Shown here: in pieces, positions 6,357-51,716 of the stretch
Position numbering within the stretch: position 1 is the stretch's first letter
Layout of the letters: every line of letters starts with the position of its first letter
Origin: an uncultured Bacilli bacterium
GTDB taxonomy: Bacteria; Bacillota_I; Bacilli_A; RF39; UBA660
DNA length: 52,076 bases
Assembly (NCBI GenBank): GCA_947626115.1
Contig: CANQQX010000006.1
Coordinates: forward strand, 1-52,076
Reading direction: 5' to 3'
Position numbers and translations under genes: made by a program
The notes under the pieces: model-generated
Database searches by the model: none
What the model was told of the DNA's origin: nothing
What the model saw: only the letters and a program-made list of their open reading frames with translations

Positions 6357-6442
6357 AAAAAATTCCCCCCCTCTAAATGCTCTTAAATGCTTAAATACAC
6401 CTGATTGCCTGTTATTATAGCAAAACTAGAAAATTTGTCAAA

Positions 6443-14179: not shown

Positions 14180-15676
14180 TTATATTGCAAGAGCTATGCG
14201 AAAACTATAATATTTTTCTGCACCACCAATCCATGAAGAAAAATAAAATTGACCTGTTAGAACACCATCGCTATTAATCCCACCACGAAAAGGCCAAGGA
14301 TCTGATAAATCAACAAAATTAGAGTTATCAGCATACCAACTACTATGGAGACCATTCCAACCACTACTTTCTAAATATTTATAAAATGGTCCAAGTTCTC
14401 CTGTGGCATCGCCTAAGATTCTTTTATTATATGAATCTCTTGAACTATCGGCTGAATACTCATCTATATATCCTTTGGCCACCTGATTTTCTAATTCACT
14501 TGTATCAAATCCACTACTACTAATTTGACCCTTTACACAAGCTGCCATATATTCCCAAGCACCACCACTCATATCATATACTCCACCTATATTACCGGTA
14601 GTAGATGCTAAATAGCCAAAAGCAGTATTCCATGGTTGAGTATTTACCTTATCAGTACTTTCAGCAGTTATTCCTGGATATATTCTTTGATCAATATTAG
14701 AAGTTGCAGAATATCCTGTTTTAAAATCAGCCGAATTATTTGTATTTACTTCATTTCCTATTCCATATGCAGAGTGAGATAAATATGCTACCGCTCCCCA
14801 TTCTGTATTTTTTAACATATGGCTATCTAAATCTCTTTCATAATTATATGAATTCATAAACATATTTTTTATTGATATATTACGCCATGAATATACATCT
14901 GGTTTTATTATTATTTCATCACGTGCTTCACTATCTACTCCCGCATTATTTGCATTTGTTGCATCTTTATATCCCGTTTCAAACTTTCCTACCCATATAC
15001 CATTTAAATCTTTAGTACCTAATGTAAATGCTGGATGTGTATAATATTTATTTAATTCTGCTTCATTTTCGTTCATTTTTGGTATACTATTTGGTGTTCC
15101 AAATTTTATATCTATTAATCGTGAATTACTGCCAGCTACCTTCCAAAATGCAGTATCATTTTCACGATTACTTTGATCATCTGTTAATTGACTAAAAGTA
15201 TAAGATTCACTATATTCACCTAAATCCCATATCTTATATTGATATCTTGGTATCCAGACAAAGTAACTTTCAATGTCATCTTCTATTATATGATCTCCTA
15301 CTTTATAATTTGTATTACTGGGACTATCTATTAATATAATTGCATTGGCCCATCTTTTCTCACTATAGTTATACCATTCACTATTTTCGTTAGCATAATA
15401 AACATCACCATTTGGTTTTATTTCGACCGGGATTAAATGATCCTTTAATACAGGATCTGCTCCATTTAATGTTTTATCTACCCATTTAGTCTTATGTATA
15501 CCACTTTTTTCATATAATTCATCTATAGCTTCTTCAACATTTGTTTTATTATGATTATTATACGTTACTTTATTACTTTCGATATAGGCATCTACTGCAT
15601 ATACTGTTGATATTGATAATATTAATCCTACTATTACTCCTAGTATAAATATATATTTATTATTTACTTTTCTCAT
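14180..15676 (-). CDS. Membrane-anchored FGE-sulfatase/C-type-lectin-like surface protein (paralogue 1)
   Basis: 498 residues: an N-terminal signal anchor (about 8-30), a conserved linker (VEEAIDELYEKSG) and an exported domain resembling the formylglycine-generating-enzyme fold. That fold shows in FVWIPRYQYKIWD, HPAFTLG, NGIWVGKFETG, NTEWGAVAYL, GVYDMSGGAWEYMA and the final PWPFRGG...SFRIALA. No cysteine pair of a true FGE is seen, so I read it as a ligand-binding C-type-lectin-like domain, not an enzyme. A paralogue at 39116-40603 matches closely except over the last ~60 residues, where the pocket of this fold lies. Transcription starts from a promoter with an eight-G spacer shared with two other surface genes, and the leader AGAAGGTTATTATA is conserved with the paralogue. 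Confidence 0.75.
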   Translation of the reverse strand: MRKVNNKYIFILGVIVGLILSISTVYAVDAYIESNKVTYNNHNKTNVEEAIDELYEKSGIHKTKWVDKTLNGADPVLKDHLIPVEIKPNGDVYYANENSEWYNYSEKRWANAIILIDSPSNTNYKVGDHIIEDDIESYFVWIPRYQYKIWDLGEYSESYTFSQLTDDQSNRENDTAFWKVAGSNSRLIDIKFGTPNSIPKMNENEAELNKYYTHPAFTLGTKDLNGIWVGKFETGYKDATNANNAGVDSEARDEIIIKPDVYSWRNISIKNMFMNSYNYERDLDSHMLKNTEWGAVAYLSHSAYGIGNEVNTNNSADFKTGYSATSNIDQRIYPGITAESTDKVNTQPWNTAFGYLASTTGNIGGVYDMSGGAWEYMAACVKGQISSSGFDTSELENQVAKGYIDEYSADSSRDSYNKRILGDATGELGPFYKYLESSGWNGLHSSWYADNSNFVDLSDPWPFRGGINSDGVLTGQFYFSSWIGGAEKYYSFRIALAI

Positions 15677-15704: not shown

Positions 15705-15732
15705 ATTATAATATACCCCCCCCGAGAGTCAA
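15705..15732 (-). promoter_or_regulatory. Promoter with G8 spacer tract (surface gene 14180-15676)
   Basis: On the minus strand: -35 TTGACT (15727-15732), a 16-bp spacer containing eight G (plus-strand C at 15716-15723) and -10 TATAAT (15705-15710), then 28 bases to the ATG. The same layout recurs at 26891-26918 and 51745-51772. A homopolymer between -35 and -10 can change spacer length by slippage. Confidence 0.75.
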
Positions 15733-18077: not shown

Positions 18078-20549
18078 TTGCAAAAATATTGGAAATTTTT
18101 AGTGGTATTTGCAGTAGTGTTATTTAGTAGTATTAAAGGCGTAAATGCAGCCAAATTAGTGCAGACACCAATTGATAATGTTTGGTATGTAAGACAAGGA
18201 GGTGGCGAAAAGTATTTCTCGGCTAAATATCATGAATATGTTATTGATGGTAATAAAACAACTTATTGTATTGAACCTGGTGTCCATATTACAACTTTAG
18301 ATTATAAAGAAATGGGTGGACTAACTACTTCACCATATAGTGAAGAAATAAATCAAAAAATGCAATTAATTGGTTATTATGGTTATGATTATCCTACTCA
18401 TAAAACTTTAAAATACCGGATGGCTGCTCAAGCCTTAATTTGGGAGTTAACTGGTAATGGTAAAGTTGAATATTGGACTGAAGCATCAGGTCATGGTGAT
18501 TATATCGATATAAGTACTGAACGAGATGAGATTAATAGACTTGTTAATAGTCATTATGATATGCCATCATTTGTGGGAGAAGAAAAAAGTACCACCATTG
18601 GAAGGTTAGTAACATTTACTGATAGTAATAATCTACTTTCTAATTATGAAGTTATCGAAAACAATAGTTATACTGCATCAATCGATGAAAACACTTTGAA
18701 AGTAACGCCCAAAAAAGTTGGGAATATTACTATTACTTTAAAAAGAAAGCAATATACTAGTACTAATACTACTCTATATGCTGGAATTGATGAAATTTCG
18801 CAAAAAATGGGTTACTTTGGCTTAGATGAAGAAATAACTTTTAAAGTAACTATTAAAAGTTTAGGTGGTAAAGTAACTATAGAAAAATTAGATAAAGATA
18901 ATTTATCTATTACACCCAAAGGTGATGCTATTTTAAAAGGAGCTATCTATGGTATTTATGATAGTGATGATAATAAAATTACCGAAGTAACTATTGGAAA
19001 TAATTCTAAAGTTACTAGCCCTAACTTACCTAAATTAGGAAGATACTATCTCAAAGAAATTAAACCAAGTAAAGGCTACACTTTAGATACCCAAAAATAT
19101 TACTTTGAAATTACCGAAGATAATCTTAACCCAAGTGTTAAAGTATATGAAAAAGTTATTGAGAAAAAAATTGAATTTTATAAAGTAATGAATAACAATA
19201 AAACAGGGATACTTACATCTGAGCCTAATATTACTTTTGAATTTTATTTAAAATCCAGTAACGAGTTAGTAGCTACTAAAACAACGGATAAAGATGGACA
19301 TTTAACTCTTACCCTACCTTTTGGTACCTACATAGTTAAACAAACATCAACAACCGAAGGCTTTGAAAAGATTAAAGACTTTGAAATAGTCATTGAAAAT
19401 GATGAACCACTTACTAAAGTTATTGCTGATGGTGAAATTATGGCACGTTTAAAACTTATTAAAATTGATAGTAATTCAAAAAGAGTTTTAGTAAAAGATG
19501 GTATTAAATTTAAAATTAAGAATTTAGATACTAACAAATATGTCTGTCAAAGTGTAACTTATCCAAAAACTGAAAAAATTTGTGAATTTAGTACAACTGA
19601 TGGTATGTTTATTACTCCATATTTACTAAAAGCTGGTAACTACCAAATTGAAGAAGTAGAAAATCAATTACTATCTGGTTATTTATGGAATAAAACTTCT
19701 CTTAAATTTTCAATTAATAATGATTCTAATTTTATCTATGATGATGAATTAGGACTTATTTTAGAAGTAAGATTTGAAAATAAAGAAGTTATGGGTGAAG
19801 TAAATATTCATAAAGTTGGGGAAAAAGTTGTTTTAGAAGATAATACTTTTCATTATGAAGATATAGATTTAGATGGCGTAACTTATGAATTATATGCTGA
19901 TGAAGATATTTATTCTGGTGATGGTACTCTTATCTATAAAAAAGGAACTTTAATAGATAGTTATATTACGAAAGATGGCAAAATTAATATTAAAAATTTA
20001 TATTTGGGAAAATATTACTTAGTTGAAAGTAAAACATTAGATGGTTATATCTTAGATGCAACTAAACATTATTTTGAACTTAAATATAAAGATCAATATA
20101 CTGATATTGTAAGTTTATCTTTTACTTTTAAAAATTATTTACCTAAAGGTACTTTTGAATTTACTAAAAGTGATATATCTACCGGTGAAGTTTTACCTAA
20201 TACTAAAATTCAAGTATATACTTATGAAGATGATTATGAAAATGGTACTTTAATTTTTGAAGGTTATACAGATGAAAACGGTAATATCAAAATACCTAAT
20301 CTATTTGTAGGTAAATTCTACTTTGTTGAAAGTGAAGCTCCAGAAGGTTATGTTTTAAATGATAGTAAGAATTTCTTTGAAATAACTAAAGATGGTGAGA
20401 TTATCAAAGCTAATATGACTAATGAACGAATAGTCTTATCTGTACCTAAAACATTAGATAATAAAAATACAATAGTTAATATAATTGGTATAATAAATGT
20501 TATTATATCTTTAGGATGTTATCTTTATGCTAAAGAAGAAAATAATTAA
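18078..20549 (+). CDS. Sortase-anchored thioester-domain adhesin with CnaB/SpaA-like modules
   Basis: 823 residues, started by TTG eight bases after AAAGGAGG. A signal peptide (about 1-24, ending VNAA) is followed by a thioester domain: Cys64 in YCIEPG and Gln118 in AAQALIWE are the expected cross-linking pair, which in related adhesins forms a covalent bond to host or surface amines. Next come an Ig-like stretch (about 185-255) and about five SpaA-type modules, each opening with a K-containing strand (VTIEKLD, IEFYKVM, LKLIKID, VNIHKVG, FEFTKSD) and closing with a Glu-bearing ESxxPEGY-like strand, as in self-forming isopeptide domains. The C-terminus has VPKTLD, a membrane helix and a KEENN tail: a non-canonical sorting signal. 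The sortase gene overlaps its end. Confidence 0.88.
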   Translation: MQKYWKFLVVFAVVLFSSIKGVNAAKLVQTPIDNVWYVRQGGGEKYFSAKYHEYVIDGNKTTYCIEPGVHITTLDYKEMGGLTTSPYSEEINQKMQLIGYYGYDYPTHKTLKYRMAAQALIWELTGNGKVEYWTEASGHGDYIDISTERDEINRLVNSHYDMPSFVGEEKSTTIGRLVTFTDSNNLLSNYEVIENNSYTASIDENTLKVTPKKVGNITITLKRKQYTSTNTTLYAGIDEISQKMGYFGLDEEITFKVTIKSLGGKVTIEKLDKDNLSITPKGDAILKGAIYGIYDSDDNKITEVTIGNNSKVTSPNLPKLGRYYLKEIKPSKGYTLDTQKYYFEITEDNLNPSVKVYEKVIEKKIEFYKVMNNNKTGILTSEPNITFEFYLKSSNELVATKTTDKDGHLTLTLPFGTYIVKQTSTTEGFEKIKDFEIVIENDEPLTKVIADGEIMARLKLIKIDSNSKRVLVKDGIKFKIKNLDTNKYVCQSVTYPKTEKICEFSTTDGMFITPYLLKAGNYQIEEVENQLLSGYLWNKTSLKFSINNDSNFIYDDELGLILEVRFENKEVMGEVNIHKVGEKVVLEDNTFHYEDIDLDGVTYELYADEDIYSGDGTLIYKKGTLIDSYITKDGKINIKNLYLGKYYLVESKTLDGYILDATKHYFELKYKDQYTDIVSLSFTFKNYLPKGTFEFTKSDISTGEVLPNTKIQVYTYEDDYENGTLIFEGYTDENGNIKIPNLFVGKFYFVESEAPEGYVLNDSKNFFEITKDGEIIKANMTNERIVLSVPKTLDNKNTIVNIIGIINVIISLGCYLYAKEENN

Positions 20550-21090
20550 AATATCTTTAATTACTTTCATAAGTACAATTATTTTATTAAGTGCTTATTA
20601 TTTATCTTTATATTATGAAAATAAAAAAGAAAAAATATTAATTAAGGAATATTTTAATACTACTATTAATGATAATAGTTATCACAAAATAAGTAATGAT
20701 AATTATATTGGTATATTAGAAATACCTGTTATTAATTTACGTAAGGGTTTTTATAATATTGATAATAAAAATAATAATGTTAATAAAAATATTCAAGTTT
20801 TAGCTAAATCTTCCATGCCAGATCAGGAAAATAGTTTACTTGCTATTGCCGGTCATTCTGGTAATGGTCGAAAATCATTTTTCAAAGATTTAGATAAACT
20901 TAGTATTAATGATGAAATTATTATTTACTATAACAATAATGAATACTTTTATAAAATAAATAATATTTATGAAGAAGAAAAAGATGGTACAATTGAAATT
21001 AAAAAAGATGACTATTCTAAATTAGTATTAACTACTTGCAATCAAAAGAACAAAACCAAGCAAATTATCATTGAAGCATTTTTAATTTAA
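20527..21090 (+). CDS. Sortase (class B/D-like) with Lys in place of the catalytic Arg
   Basis: Membrane-anchored transpeptidase of 187 residues: one helix at about 8-28, then the sortase barrel with His110 (in AGHSG) and Cys171 (in LVLTTCNQ). In sortases an Arg about seven to nine residues after the Cys completes the site; here the sequence reads NKTKQIII, with Lys178 at that place and no Arg nearby. The ATG lies inside the end of the adhesin gene (23-bp overlap), after AGGATG, so the two are translationally coupled and the adhesin is its evident substrate. The sorting signal it meets, VPKTLD, is also atypical. The class is uncertain. Confidence 0.85.
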   Translation: MLKKKIIKISLITFISTIILLSAYYLSLYYENKKEKILIKEYFNTTINDNSYHKISNDNYIGILEIPVINLRKGFYNIDNKNNNVNKNIQVLAKSSMPDQENSLLAIAGHSGNGRKSFFKDLDKLSINDEIIIYYNNNEYFYKINNIYEEEKDGTIEIKKDDYSKLVLTTCNQKNKTKQIIIEAFLI

Positions 21091-25107: not shown

Positions 25108-26862
25108 TTATTCTTCTACATCTAGGATATACGGATTTGCTTTTGTACCAACACCATCCTTGATTTTTGCTGCCGACGAAAGGAAAAAGACGGGTCTCAG
25201 ACTACTTACTACACCCAAAGGGGTCCCAAAAACCCTACCAGAACCATCCACACAACGCGCCAACACGTAATGGTTCGTTGGCATAGACGTCCCACCGAGG
25301 ACCCCATTGCGCGTGCTAAAGCATTCGACATATGTAGATGAGTTATACCCATCTTTTTGAAAATGCAACCATCCATTTTTAGCTGCACTCTCACCTCCTG
25401 GGTTTCCGCGACTTTCTTCTGTAGATCCATCATAATAACTATATAAATAATCATGTATATACATAAGACTTATCTTGGCTGTCACCTTATTTTCTGCTGG
25501 CCATCTATATTGTTCTGCTACTAACATTGAATCTACATAATGCGTTGTTTCCGTTTGGCCAGTTTCAATATCATACATATTTCTTCCATTATATATTACT
25601 GATTCCGTCTCAACGTTTGTATCTCCATACATCCATTCGTGATCCGCTATTAATTGATACCATTTACTTCCTTTATTATCTTTTGTACCATTTATACTAT
25701 CTCCTGATTTTAAATATTCATATTCACTACTATCTACAAAGATATCCGTCCATTCTTTGTTTAGTGTTGACCCATCTCCTGCTTGTGTTCCATTACTTGT
25801 TCCATTTATTCTTTTAAATAGTAAACTTGTATTCCATTCTGGACATAACCCGTCATCACAATAAAAAGAATCAGATGAGCTTGTTGAATATTTATCATTC
25901 CATGCAAATTCCTTTTGAGTTCCTTCTTTTAAGAATGTTTCTTTTATTAAATACATTTGTCCTTCTTCCGTTATCCCTATTATTCTGTACATGTATTTAT
26001 CTATTCCTGTATCTTCATTTGTACATTGTTCTTTATCTGTTGTTCCAAAGCATATCCAATTGATCATTTGAGCTGTTCCCGTCTCATCTACCGGTGATGC
26101 CTGATATCTATACATTCCGCCTTGTAAATCTTCACTTAAATATTTTTGACTATCATTATTTCTTAACTTATCTATTGTTTCTGGCTCTGCTATATCACAT
26201 TTTAATTCACTTGTACTTATATCTATATTTAATTTCTTTCCTGCTAAATAATTTTGTTGTTCTTCTTTATTTAATAATTTAATATATGCTTGGATATTTT
26301 CTACTTTATTTCCTGTTATCTTAAAATTTAAATTATATTCTTTTGGGGTATTCTCTTTTAATTCACTTAAATCTAATTTTTCGCTTATTATATTCCCTTT
26401 AAATTGTAATATCATATCTCCTAGTTGTAATACTTCTACCATTGTATCTGCATTTTCTTCTTCTGTTACTTTACTTACTGTTAACTTCGCTGTACAACTA
26501 TATTTGGTTGTTACTTCTCCACCTGTTAACTCTACTGATGCTATTGTCTTTGTTCCTAATTCTTCTGTTCCTACATATGGGTCTTCTCCATCTGTTCCAT
26601 AATATTCTTTTGTCCTATTTTCATATGACATATCACTTGCACTTATATTTAAATGTAAATTATCCGCTCCCGGTTTTAATGTTACCAAACTTTTTGGTGG
26701 TGTTTTTCCGGTTATAGTTGTATTACTACTTTCATTATTTGTACTTATTTGAAAGTAAGCATAAGTGGCTCCAAGTACCGCTATTAACAATGTTACTAAA
26801 CCTATTAGTATTGCTACCTTTTGTTTCTTCTTATTCTCATTATTTTTTACTTCTTCGTTCAT
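25108..26862 (-). CDS. Large membrane-anchored surface protein with hypervariable GC-rich C-terminus (paralogue A)
   Basis: 584 residues. A lysine-rich start and a membrane helix at about 15-36 (VAILIGLVTLLIAVLGATYAYF region) resemble the export anchor of camelysin/TasA-like proteins. A beta-rich domain (about 40-235) follows, then a Cys-containing domain with GGMYRYQA, NWICFGTT, YMYRIIGITEEGQ and HEWMYGDT. The end is W-L-H-F-Q-K-D-G-Y..., a divergent stretch, RPVFFL and DGVGTKANPYILDV. That last part resembles the GVRP-type closing strand of C-type-lectin-like domains. The copy at 49950-51716 is alike throughout except for the ~45-50 residues before RPVF, which lie in a G+C-rich patch. It has about ten cysteines, unusual for a Gram-positive surface protein, and thioredoxin-like genes flank it. 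It is transcribed from a G8-spacer promoter. Ligand unknown. Confidence 0.8.
   Translation of the reverse strand: MNEEVKNNENKKKQKVAILIGLVTLLIAVLGATYAYFQISTNNESSNTTITGKTPPKSLVTLKPGADNLHLNISASDMSYENRTKEYYGTDGEDPYVGTEELGTKTIASVELTGGEVTTKYSCTAKLTVSKVTEEENADTMVEVLQLGDMILQFKGNIISEKLDLSELKENTPKEYNLNFKITGNKVENIQAYIKLLNKEEQQNYLAGKKLNIDISTSELKCDIAEPETIDKLRNNDSQKYLSEDLQGGMYRYQASPVDETGTAQMINWICFGTTDKEQCTNEDTGIDKYMYRIIGITEEGQMYLIKETFLKEGTQKEFAWNDKYSTSSSDSFYCDDGLCPEWNTSLLFKRINGTSNGTQAGDGSTLNKEWTDIFVDSSEYEYLKSGDSINGTKDNKGSKWYQLIADHEWMYGDTNVETESVIYNGRNMYDIETGQTETTHYVDSMLVAEQYRWPAENKVTAKISLMYIHDYLYSYYDGSTEESRGNPGGESAAKNGWLHFQKDGYNSSTYVECFSTRNGVLGGTSMPTNHYVLARCVDGSGRVFGTPLGVVSSLRPVFFLSSAAKIKDGVGTKANPYILDVEE
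25171..25333 (-). other. GC-rich divergent segment in surface protein A
   Basis: Positions 25201-25320 hold 64 G or C in 120 bases (53%), while coding DNA around it is near 31-36%. Of about 45 codons only about four end in A, although A-ending codons dominate elsewhere. On the coding strand A makes up about 16%. The matching part of the paralogue at 49950-51716 is equally aberrant but different in sequence. Confidence 0.8.
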
Positions 26863-39115: not shown

Positions 39116-40603
39116 TCATTTACTTGGAGCAAGTACAATCCGAAAAGTAATGTTAATATCTTTTTCACCAATAGCAGAAGCGAAGAAAAATTGACTAGCA
39201 CCACCACCATCATTAAAACCACCAGTTCGTAAAAACCAAGGTTTAGTTGAATCTATAAAATTTGCATAATCACCATACCAACTATTATGATGATCATTTG
39301 TTCCTTCACCACCATAATATTGATAAAAAGGTCCCATTTCTCCCGTTGCATCTCCCAATATTCTTTTATCATATATTGTACGAGAATCATTTTTAGAATA
39401 TTTATCAATATAACCATTAGCCATTTCAGTTGCTAAAGTTGAAGTATCAAAGCCACTGTTACCTACCAATCCTTCCATACATCCCGCTACTAATTCCCAA
39501 GATCCACCACTCATATCATATACTCCACTAATATTACCGGTTGTACTTCCTAAATAACCAGTTGAAGTGTTCCATGGTTTAGTTATAGTTTGATCAGTAC
39601 TTTCGGCATAAGTACCTAAACGAGTACTTTGATTTGTATTTGGAGCTGCTACATAACCAGTCATATGATCAAGTGTATTGTTTATCCTAACTTCATTACC
39701 AATACCATACTCTGAATGTGAAAGATATGCTACTGCTCCCCATTCCGTATTCTTTATCATATGACTATCTAAATTTCTTTCATAATTAAATGATGTCATA
39801 AACATATTTTTCATTGATATATTTCGCCAAGAATGAACACTAGGTTTGATTATTACACTATCTTTTTCCACATTATCTACTTGAGCACTAGTAATGCTAT
39901 CTGCCCCTTTATATCCGGTTTCAAATTTGCCTACCCAGATACCATTTAAATCTTTATTTCCTAAAGTAAAGGCTGGATGAGTATAATATACTCCTGTTGT
40001 ACTTGGCTCTGTCATTTTGGGTATATTATTTGGTGTTCCAAATTGGATATCGATTATTCTTGATTTATTCATGGCTTGGGTTGTTGATGTTGTATAGTCA
40101 TTATTTACTAATGTACTTCCATCTGGAGCACTGGTATATTTTCCTAAATCCCATACTTTATATTGATATCTTGGTATCCACACAAAATAACTTTCGATAT
40201 CATCTTCTAGAATATGATCTCCAACTTTATAATTTGTATTGCTTGGATTATCTATAAGTATTATGGCATTAGCCCATCTTTTCTCACTATAGTTATACCA
40301 TTCACTATTTTCGTTAGCATAATAGACTTCACCATTTGGTTTTATTTCAACTGGAATTAATGGTTCCTTTAATACCGGATCTGCTCCATTAAGTATTGGA
40401 TCTACCCATTTAGTCTTATGTATACCACTTTTTTCATATAATTCATCTATGGCTTCTTCAACATTATTTTTATTATGATTATTATAGGCTACTTTATTAC
40501 TTTCGATATAGGCATCTACTGCATATACTGTGGTTCCAGATATTATTAAGCCTAATATAAAAGCAATTATTATTTTATAATTATTTTTTATTACTCTTTT
40601 CAT
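39116..40603 (-). CDS. Membrane-anchored FGE-sulfatase/C-type-lectin-like surface protein (paralogue 2)
   Basis: 495 residues, closely matching the protein at 14180-15676. It has the same signal anchor ending AVDAYIESNKV, the same VEEAIDELYEKSG linker, and the FGE-like core with FVWIPRYQYKVWD, HPAFTLGNKD, GVYDMSGGSWELVA and a final PWFLRTGG...TFRIVLAP. The last ~60 residues differ from the paralogue in most positions. The leader AGAAGGTTATTATA is shared, but the upstream promoter is not: no eight-G tract is present, and the region to 40809 holds only AT-rich sequence and the terminator of dacF. It may therefore be expressed under other control. Confidence 0.75.
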   Translation of the reverse strand: MKRVIKNNYKIIIAFILGLIISGTTVYAVDAYIESNKVAYNNHNKNNVEEAIDELYEKSGIHKTKWVDPILNGADPVLKEPLIPVEIKPNGEVYYANENSEWYNYSEKRWANAIILIDNPSNTNYKVGDHILEDDIESYFVWIPRYQYKVWDLGKYTSAPDGSTLVNNDYTTSTTQAMNKSRIIDIQFGTPNNIPKMTEPSTTGVYYTHPAFTLGNKDLNGIWVGKFETGYKGADSITSAQVDNVEKDSVIIKPSVHSWRNISMKNMFMTSFNYERNLDSHMIKNTEWGAVAYLSHSEYGIGNEVRINNTLDHMTGYVAAPNTNQSTRLGTYAESTDQTITKPWNTSTGYLGSTTGNISGVYDMSGGSWELVAGCMEGLVGNSGFDTSTLATEMANGYIDKYSKNDSRTIYDKRILGDATGEMGPFYQYYGGEGTNDHHNSWYGDYANFIDSTKPWFLRTGGFNDGGGASQFFFASAIGEKDINITFRIVLAPSK

Positions 40604-40796
40604 CTATAATAACCTTCTCTGTTTATTATTAGTATTCATATTTAATATGTAAAATATTATAAATATTACTATGTTTTACTACACATCTATTGTAATTAAA
40701 TTATACAACACAAGAGTTCACAATTCAACATATTTGTTGAAACAAAAAATAATTCATAAACTATATTTATTTCTTATACAAATTTCATGAATTATT

Positions 40797-49949: not shown

Positions 49950-51716
49950 TTATTCTTGGACATCCAAGATATATGGATTTGCTTTTGTACCATCTCCATC
50001 GGCAATTTTTGCACTTGTTTCAACATAGAAGACAGGCCTCACGCCTCCTCCGCCATTCAACCCGATCATGCGGCTCATGCTACCGTCATCCTCCGCGACA
50101 CGCGCGTTGACCATCAGGACACCCGGAGCGATGACACCCGAGCGAGTGCTCAACCATTCGTAATCTGTTGATGTGTTGTATCCATCTTTCAAGAAATGTA
50201 TCCAACTATTTTTTACATTTGTATTACTTCCTGGATCTCCGCGACTTTCTTCACTGGATCCATCATAATATGCATACGCTACATCATGTATGTACATTAA
50301 ACCTATTTTTGCTTTTACTTTGTTACTCCATGTGTATGTTTCTCGGGTTATATTTCCTTTTGTTCCTACATAGTGTATTGTTTCTGTTTGACCAGTTTCA
50401 ATATCATACATATTTTTTCCATTATATATTACTGAATCGTTTTGAGTTTTTGTATCTCCATACATCCATTCGTGATCCGCTATTAAATTATACCATTCGC
50501 TTGCTTCTCCACCACTATTACCATCTCCGGATTTTAAATAACTATATTCTTTACTATCTACAAATATATCTGTCCAATCTTTGTTTAGTATTTTACCATC
50601 TCCTGTTTGTATTCCATTGCTTGTTCCATTTATTCTTTTGAATAATAAACTTTCCGGCCATTCTGGACATATTCCATTTTCACAATAATATGAATTTGAA
50701 CTATCAATAGAATATTTATCATTCCATACAAATGTCTTTTGAGTTTCTTCTTTTAAGAATGTCTCTTTTAATAAATATAATTGTCCTTCTTCTGTTATTC
50801 CTATTATTCGATACATATATTTATCTATTCCATCTGGTATACTATTACCATCACTATCTGTTTCATCTGTACATTCTTCTTTATTAGTTGTTCCAAAACA
50901 TATCCAGTTTGTCATTTGTGCTGCTTCATTTTCATCTCTGGGTGCTGCTTGGTATCTATACATTCCACCTTGTAACTCTTCACTTAAATATCCTTGACTA
51001 TCTTCATATCTTAATTGAGCTACTGTTGTATCAACTATTGCTACATTACATTTTAATTCACTTGTACTTATATTGATATTTAATTTCTTTCCTGCTAAGT
51101 AATTTTGTTGCTCTTCTTTATTTACTAATTTGATATATGCTTGTATTTCTTCTGGGGTATTTCCTGTTACTTTAAACTTTAAATTATATTCTTTACTTCC
51201 TGTTGTCTTTAATTCACTTAAATCTAATTTCTCACTTATGATATTTCCTTTAAATTGTAATATCATATCTCCTGGTTGTAAGACTTCTACCATTGTATCT
51301 GCTTCTTCTAAAGGTTCAGTTACCTTTGATACTGTTAACTTAGCTGTACAACTATATTTGGTTGTTGCTTCTCCACCTGTTAATTCTACTGATGCTATTG
51401 TCTTTGTTCCATCACTTTCATTTTCTTCATATGATTTTGCTTCTGCATCTGTTGCATAATATTCTTTTGTTTTATTTTCATATGACATATCACCTGCACT
51501 TATATTTAAATGTAAATTATCTGTTCCCGGTTTTAATGTTACTAAACTTTTTGCAGGTGTACTTCCTGTTATATTGGTATTACTACTTTCTGTATTTGTA
51601 CTTATTTGAAAGTACGCATATGTTGCTCCGAGTACTGCTATTAGTAATGTTACTACACCAATTAGTATCATTACCTTTTGTTTTTTCTTATTCTCATTAG
51701 TATTCTCATTTTCCAT
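49950..51716 (-). CDS. Large membrane-anchored surface protein with hypervariable GC-rich C-terminus (paralogue D)
   Basis: 588 residues, the counterpart of 25108-26862 with the same order: membrane anchor (about 14-35), beta domain with DMILQFKGNIISEKLDLSEL, then GGMYRYQA, NWICFGTT, KYMYRIIGITEEGQ, HEWMYGDT, and the closing GVRPVFYVET...DGDGTKANPYILDV. Over the first ~530 residues the two proteins are clearly alike. The stretch between STRSG and VRPVF is largely different and lies in DNA of about 62% G+C. It has cysteines at the same places as the paralogue except in the divergent end. It is transcribed from a G8-spacer promoter and lies nearest the right window edge. Confidence 0.8.
   Translation of the reverse strand: MENENTNENKKKQKVMILIGVVTLLIAVLGATYAYFQISTNTESSNTNITGSTPAKSLVTLKPGTDNLHLNISAGDMSYENKTKEYYATDAEAKSYEENESDGTKTIASVELTGGEATTKYSCTAKLTVSKVTEPLEEADTMVEVLQPGDMILQFKGNIISEKLDLSELKTTGSKEYNLKFKVTGNTPEEIQAYIKLVNKEEQQNYLAGKKLNINISTSELKCNVAIVDTTVAQLRYEDSQGYLSEELQGGMYRYQAAPRDENEAAQMTNWICFGTTNKEECTDETDSDGNSIPDGIDKYMYRIIGITEEGQLYLLKETFLKEETQKTFVWNDKYSIDSSNSYYCENGICPEWPESLLFKRINGTSNGIQTGDGKILNKDWTDIFVDSKEYSYLKSGDGNSGGEASEWYNLIADHEWMYGDTKTQNDSVIYNGKNMYDIETGQTETIHYVGTKGNITRETYTWSNKVKAKIGLMYIHDVAYAYYDGSSEESRGDPGSNTNVKNSWIHFLKDGYNTSTDYEWLSTRSGVIAPGVLMVNARVAEDDGSMSRMIGLNGGGGVRPVFYVETSAKIADGDGTKANPYILDVQE
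50031..50166 (-). other. GC-rich divergent segment in surface protein D
   Basis: Positions 50041-50160 hold 75 G or C in 120 bases (62.5%), against 37 in 120 (31%) at 50401-50520 in the same gene. Of the 41 codons from TTG AGC to CCT GTC only two end in A. On the coding strand A is about 17%. It matches the place of the segment at 25171-25333 but not its sequence. Confidence 0.8.

Follow-up and report, generated by a model that had tools for sequence, protein, structure and literature searches.

The window, that is, the whole stretch of DNA analyzed here (52,076 nucleotides), is contig C6 of a 1,270,408-base genome that is 93% complete and has 26% GC. Three dispersed genes for exported proteins, all on the minus strand, are preceded in it by promoters with a run of eight G in the spacer between the -35 and -10 boxes. 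The architecture that a first, sequence-only reading had described at 15705, 26891 and 51745 is indeed shared by the three sites: TTGA(C/T)T, a 16-bp spacer with G8, TATA(A/C)T, 28 nt and ATG. The promoters, their genes and a related gene with an ordinary promoter are the following:

15732-15705, minus strand: poly-G promoter 1, TTGACT-CTCGGGGGGGGTATAT-TATAAT, 16-bp spacer (-35 box TTGACT at 15732-15727, G8 at 15723-15716, -10 box TATAAT at 15710-15705)
14180-15676, minus strand: gene for a family A exported protein of 498 aa, downstream of promoter 1
26918-26891, minus strand: poly-G promoter 2, TTGATT-TTCGGGGGGGGTAATA-TATACT, 16-bp spacer (G8 at 26909-26902)
25108-26862, minus strand: gene for a family B exported protein of 584 aa, downstream of promoter 2
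51772-51745, minus strand: poly-G promoter 3, TTGATT-CTCGGGGGGGGTATAT-TATAAT, 16-bp spacer (G8 at 51763-51756)
49950-51716, minus strand: gene for a family B exported protein of 588 aa, downstream of promoter 3
40700-40732 (approximate), minus strand: ordinary promoter of the contrast gene, read from the sequence as TTGAAT, a 17-bp non-repetitive spacer and TATAAT
39116-40603, minus strand: gene for a family A paralogue of 495 aa, the natural contrast

The two family B proteins are ~70% identical to each other, and a Pfam search with the 584-aa protein gave no family. The 498-aa family A protein has a variable C-terminus and a weak match to the FGE-sulfatase/SUMF1-like family (PF03781, E=0.0019, below the cut-off). 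Predicted structures had a pLDDT of 38 for family A and 52 for family B, too low for structure searching. The family A paralogue at 39116-40603, whose product is 66% identical to that of 14180-15676, retains the leader GAAGGTTATTATAG-ATG without the poly-G promoter, as had been noted before; its conventional promoter sits further upstream than the poly-G position.

A diversity-generating retroelement was considered as the source of the variable family A C-termini and rejected because the differences lack adenine specificity: change specific to template adenines was not found in these C-termini, and the DNA of the paralogues differs at all kinds of position. Reverse-transcriptase domains (RVT_1) occur in the genome at G000:C10:29527-30144 (L314) and in contig C21, one of them inside a 683-aa frame; the ORF at C10:29527 does not lie close to the family A genes in the window. 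The window also encodes a pilin-like protein with similarity to SpaH/EbpB (18078-20549) and an adjoining sortase (20527-21090), a second surface system (18078-21090) that has no G tract.

Such tracts would be rare by chance, as had been supposed. Dinucleotide shuffles of the window contained GGGGGGG 0.38 times on average, against seven observed, and the longer motif 0.01 times, against three observed. Besides the three promoters, the window has a single run of at least seven G (6365-6371), in agreement with the first count. The three sites of the sequence-only reading are real but undercount the set, since the genome contains 38 copies of TTGANTNTCGGGGG (none of the reversed control) and 57 runs of at least seven G in 1.27 Mb, where base composition predicts ~1.5. 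Among the 56 distinct contexts that were read, 54 are promoter-embedded tracts or insertion sequence (IS) junctions in such promoters; the exceptions, which are neither, are the run at window position 6365 and one at C17:5871. Where the -35 box has TTGA, the tract is G6 once, G7 six times, G8 39 times and G9 four times, so that 39 of 50 are exactly G8, and it is almost always preceded by C and followed by TA.

The search of the genome for further copies of this promoter, which had been suggested from the window, led to ~50 genes for exported proteins. A hydrophobic N-terminus is encoded by every one of the 50 downstream ORFs that could be read, compared with 25 of the 48 other genes of the window (p = 2e-9, a value that overstates independence because many of the 50 ORFs are paralogues). 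The main protein groups are family A (MKRVIKNNYK...VYAVDAYIES) and family B (KKKQK...LGATYAYFQI), together with others, and most loci are paralogues that have both the promoter and the N-terminus in common. The genome also carries mutS, for which reason loss of mismatch repair was rejected as a cause of hypermutability.

Three odd copies of the promoter, which lack a -10 box, suggested site-specific recombination or inversion; this was rejected, since each of these copies is the left end of an IS1182-like element sitting within the tract. The transposase matches NF033551 with E=4.9e-61 but only 207 bits, short of the cut-off of 270, and DUF772 above the cut-off. The element lies between the G run and AGRYCGTCCGACAAAT, its right end adjoining a further G8 with a -10 box behind it, and an outward TTGACTCG8 promoter is found inside the element, ~75 bp from the right end. 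The element is located at G000:C12:746-2782 (L301), C15:29145, C16:252 and C37:184 and, in related genomes, at L318 and L320. The same kind of junction occurs in the related genomes G016 and G031, giving at least six junctions at tracts or promoters in three species.

Within the 60 relatives searched, the same motif is confined to the genus (14 genomes, including that of the window). With one pattern that ignored the content of the spacer and a broader G pattern, each sister species was found to have its own version of the promoter:

G034: TTGACACC-Gn-TAATATATAAT
G018: TTGACACC-Gn-TATTATATAAT
G022: TTGACTTC-Gn-TAATATATACT
G001: TTGACTCC-Gn-TGTTATATAAT

Tract length varies between fixed flanks in these species. 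In G034, the 28-nt flanks are identical in 31 promoters, whose tract is G6 once, G7 six times, G8 17 times, G9 five times and G10 twice. Nearly all tracts of G018 are G8, with one G7, one G10 and a few G9; the ranges are G8-G10 in G023, G8/G9 in G022 and G7-G9 in G001, and the tracts of a tandem array in G004 are G10, G9, G9 and G8 behind identical cores. All these comparisons are among paralogues or species and use assembled consensus sequences, in which metagenome assembly can miscount G runs. The pattern blind to tract content returned no interrupted tract of this promoter type in G034 or G018, while the sequence around the tracts differs at ~5-20% of aligned sites between paralogous loci. 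A pure tract amid diverged neighbors, together with a length that moves, argues for selection for the homopolymer plus slippage. In G025 (L307), the same promoter position holds a conserved non-homopolymer sequence (CCGGAGGTGGGG / TTGACTCCGGAGGTGGGGAAAATATATAAT) at several loci, some of them near contig ends; this version is possibly a case of tract loss.

Across the class, 36 of 395 genomes contain one or more promoters of the form TTGAC...G8+...TATA(A/C)T. Elsewhere in the same family, genera carry multi-copy versions of their own (37 copies in G284 and seven in G305), and in a different family (f21) the promoters occur singly, with tracts of G8-G11 between flanks of unrelated sequence. Tract lengths in other genera center on G9-G11, and many of the ORFs downstream of the promoters outside the genus are signal-peptide or lipoprotein-like. 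From these sequences, it looks as if poly-G promoters evolved repeatedly and independently. Outside the class, independent poly-G promoters were seen in an uncultured Helicobacter sp. (G14; L226) and in the Clostridia bin SRR15730533 (G9-G11; L169/L214/L223). A scan of viral contigs gave only short G5-G6 matches with different flanks.

In ~1 Mb of mostly genus DNA, promoters without G tracts peak at a spacing of 17 bp, followed by 18 bp, and 15-16 bp is background. At G8, the G-tract promoters have 16 bp (the window type) or 15 bp (the type of G034, G018 and G022), and G9 would give 17 bp in the window genome, at C7:14609, C7:30920 and C11:11738. Because the ordinary optimum is 17 bp and G8 gives 15-16 bp, a gain of one or two G should raise expression. 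Expression would then probably be low at G8 and high at G9 in the window genome or at G10 in the 15-bp type.

The G8 tracts are probably SSR switches for transcriptional phase variation by slipped-strand mispairing at ~50 loci. Behind this reading are homopolymers of at least seven G between the -35 and -10 boxes, their excess over base composition both in the shuffles and genome-wide, the surface or exported character of the products, and length variation among near-identical copies, observed between paralogous copies and between species. In the mechanism that we infer, replication slippage would add or remove one G between the two boxes, the distance that RNA polymerase meets would change, and with it the transcription of the gene for a single exported or surface protein, locus by locus. 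The phase-variable reading first made from the window gains support from the G7 and G9 copies in its own genome and from the G6-G10 tracts between identical flanks in a sister species, which suggest that the activity of each gene probably flips at random. A tract fixed at eight, which had been named as the sign of a regulator-binding element, was found neither among copies nor among species. The further idea that each gene varies independently would fit lengths that differ between loci. Tracts of more than seven G belong to the hypermutable class and those of 6-8 G to the mutable class (PMC4235727); with mutS present and G8 at the border of the two, switching may be slow or of moderate rate.

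The alternative that survives best, although we judge it unlikely, is a fixed regulator site, CGGGGGGGGTA, that coordinates a surface-protein regulon and in which tract length is incidental. A motif common to ~50 genes, with a strong G8 mode and nearly constant C and TA at its sides, would be expected of such a site, and the mode stays near eight G at spacings of 15, 16 and 18-19 bp alike. Lengths of 6-10 between identical flanks speak against it, as does the tract itself, a homopolymer without the dyad for a dimeric regulator. Moreover, in other lineages any of the four bases can precede the tract, the following bases also vary and the total spacing ranges from 12 to 20 bp, all of which disfavors a regulator site; unrelated genera have also evolved the same tract position with other flanks.

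It is less probable still that errors of assembly or sequencing at G homopolymers produced the length differences. In favor of this, nine of the 57 runs lie within 350 bp of a contig end, where 1.8 would be expected, and breaks at poly-G of eight or more are frequent in Illumina assemblies (PMC4235727). However, an artefact would not depend on the species, whereas two species with nearly the same promoter differ, G018 having mostly G8 and G034 everything from G6 to G10, and other genera have their own, longer center of tract length; the existence and position of the tracts are, in addition, independent of the exact count. A passive spacer, inherited in duplicated gene cassettes and with no role in switching, would agree with the paralogy of most loci in promoter and N-terminus; it is very improbable, given that the tract stays pure G in an AT-rich genome while its neighbors have diverged, and that the same feature stands at unrelated gene families and in unrelated genera. 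Least credible of all, despite the element junctions described above, is that the G runs are chiefly landing sites for the IS1182-family element, whose insertion would switch the genes, as the element is present in only four of 38 genus genomes and many genomes with tract promoters lack it.

With phase variation by slippage as the preferred reading, a more specific scheme of "few-of-fifty" antigenic variation can be offered tentatively, at somewhat less than an even chance. In it, a whole commensal gut lineage would vary its antigens solely through poly-G tracts in promoter spacers: the modal G8 would keep nearly all genes in a low or off state, 1-2 bp below the optimal spacing, rare slippage by +1 or +2 would turn on single genes and leave each cell with a small random subset on display, and the IS element would be specialized for the tracts.

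Several known systems resemble this one in part. The vlp genes of Mycoplasma hyorhinis reportedly have a poly-A tract between the -35 and -10 boxes; they too would form a multigene family of surface proteins with a promoter-spacer homopolymer for each gene, but with poly-A in a few genes of one cluster instead of poly-G at dispersed loci. In Neisseria meningitidis, fetA and also porA and opc, the Neisseria genes that the sequence-only reading had taken as its model, have homopolymers between the -10 and -35 boxes (PMC2791445); as here, a G/C homopolymer precedes a surface-protein gene and its length alters the spacing. The neisserial genomes have few such loci, whereas ~50 near-identical promoters, candidates for such switching, are found here in the 1.27 Mb of a Gram-positive-type gut lineage. 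The phasome of Campylobacter jejuni is similar in its AT-rich genome, its many G tracts of at least seven (29 poly-G/C loci in NCTC11168; PMC4965091) and their surface functions. Its tracts are mainly in reading frames and mismatch repair is absent (PMC4235727); here, promoter spacers hold essentially all tracts, and the genome carries mutS. No poly-G promoter switch system in gut Bacilli was found in the literature searched, from which subscription journals and preprints were mostly absent. Poly-G/C promoter switches themselves were already known; what is new is the scale, a host that is presumably commensal and the consistent placing of the tracts in promoter spacers.

A 2025 review names as a major open question whether genomes with many phase-variable loci are truly restricted to pathogens or whether this reflects database bias (PMC11868660). 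The strategy has so far been described mainly in pathogens, and here a presumably commensal, uncultured gut lineage has ~50 candidate loci in 1.27 Mb, denser than the 29 of C. jejuni NCTC11168 (PMC4965091). Similar promoters appear to have arisen again in other gut Bacilli, and the question becomes testable with existing metagenome reads. For these bacteria, the pattern would point to strong, fluctuating selection on the cell surface, by phage, IgA or diet glycans.
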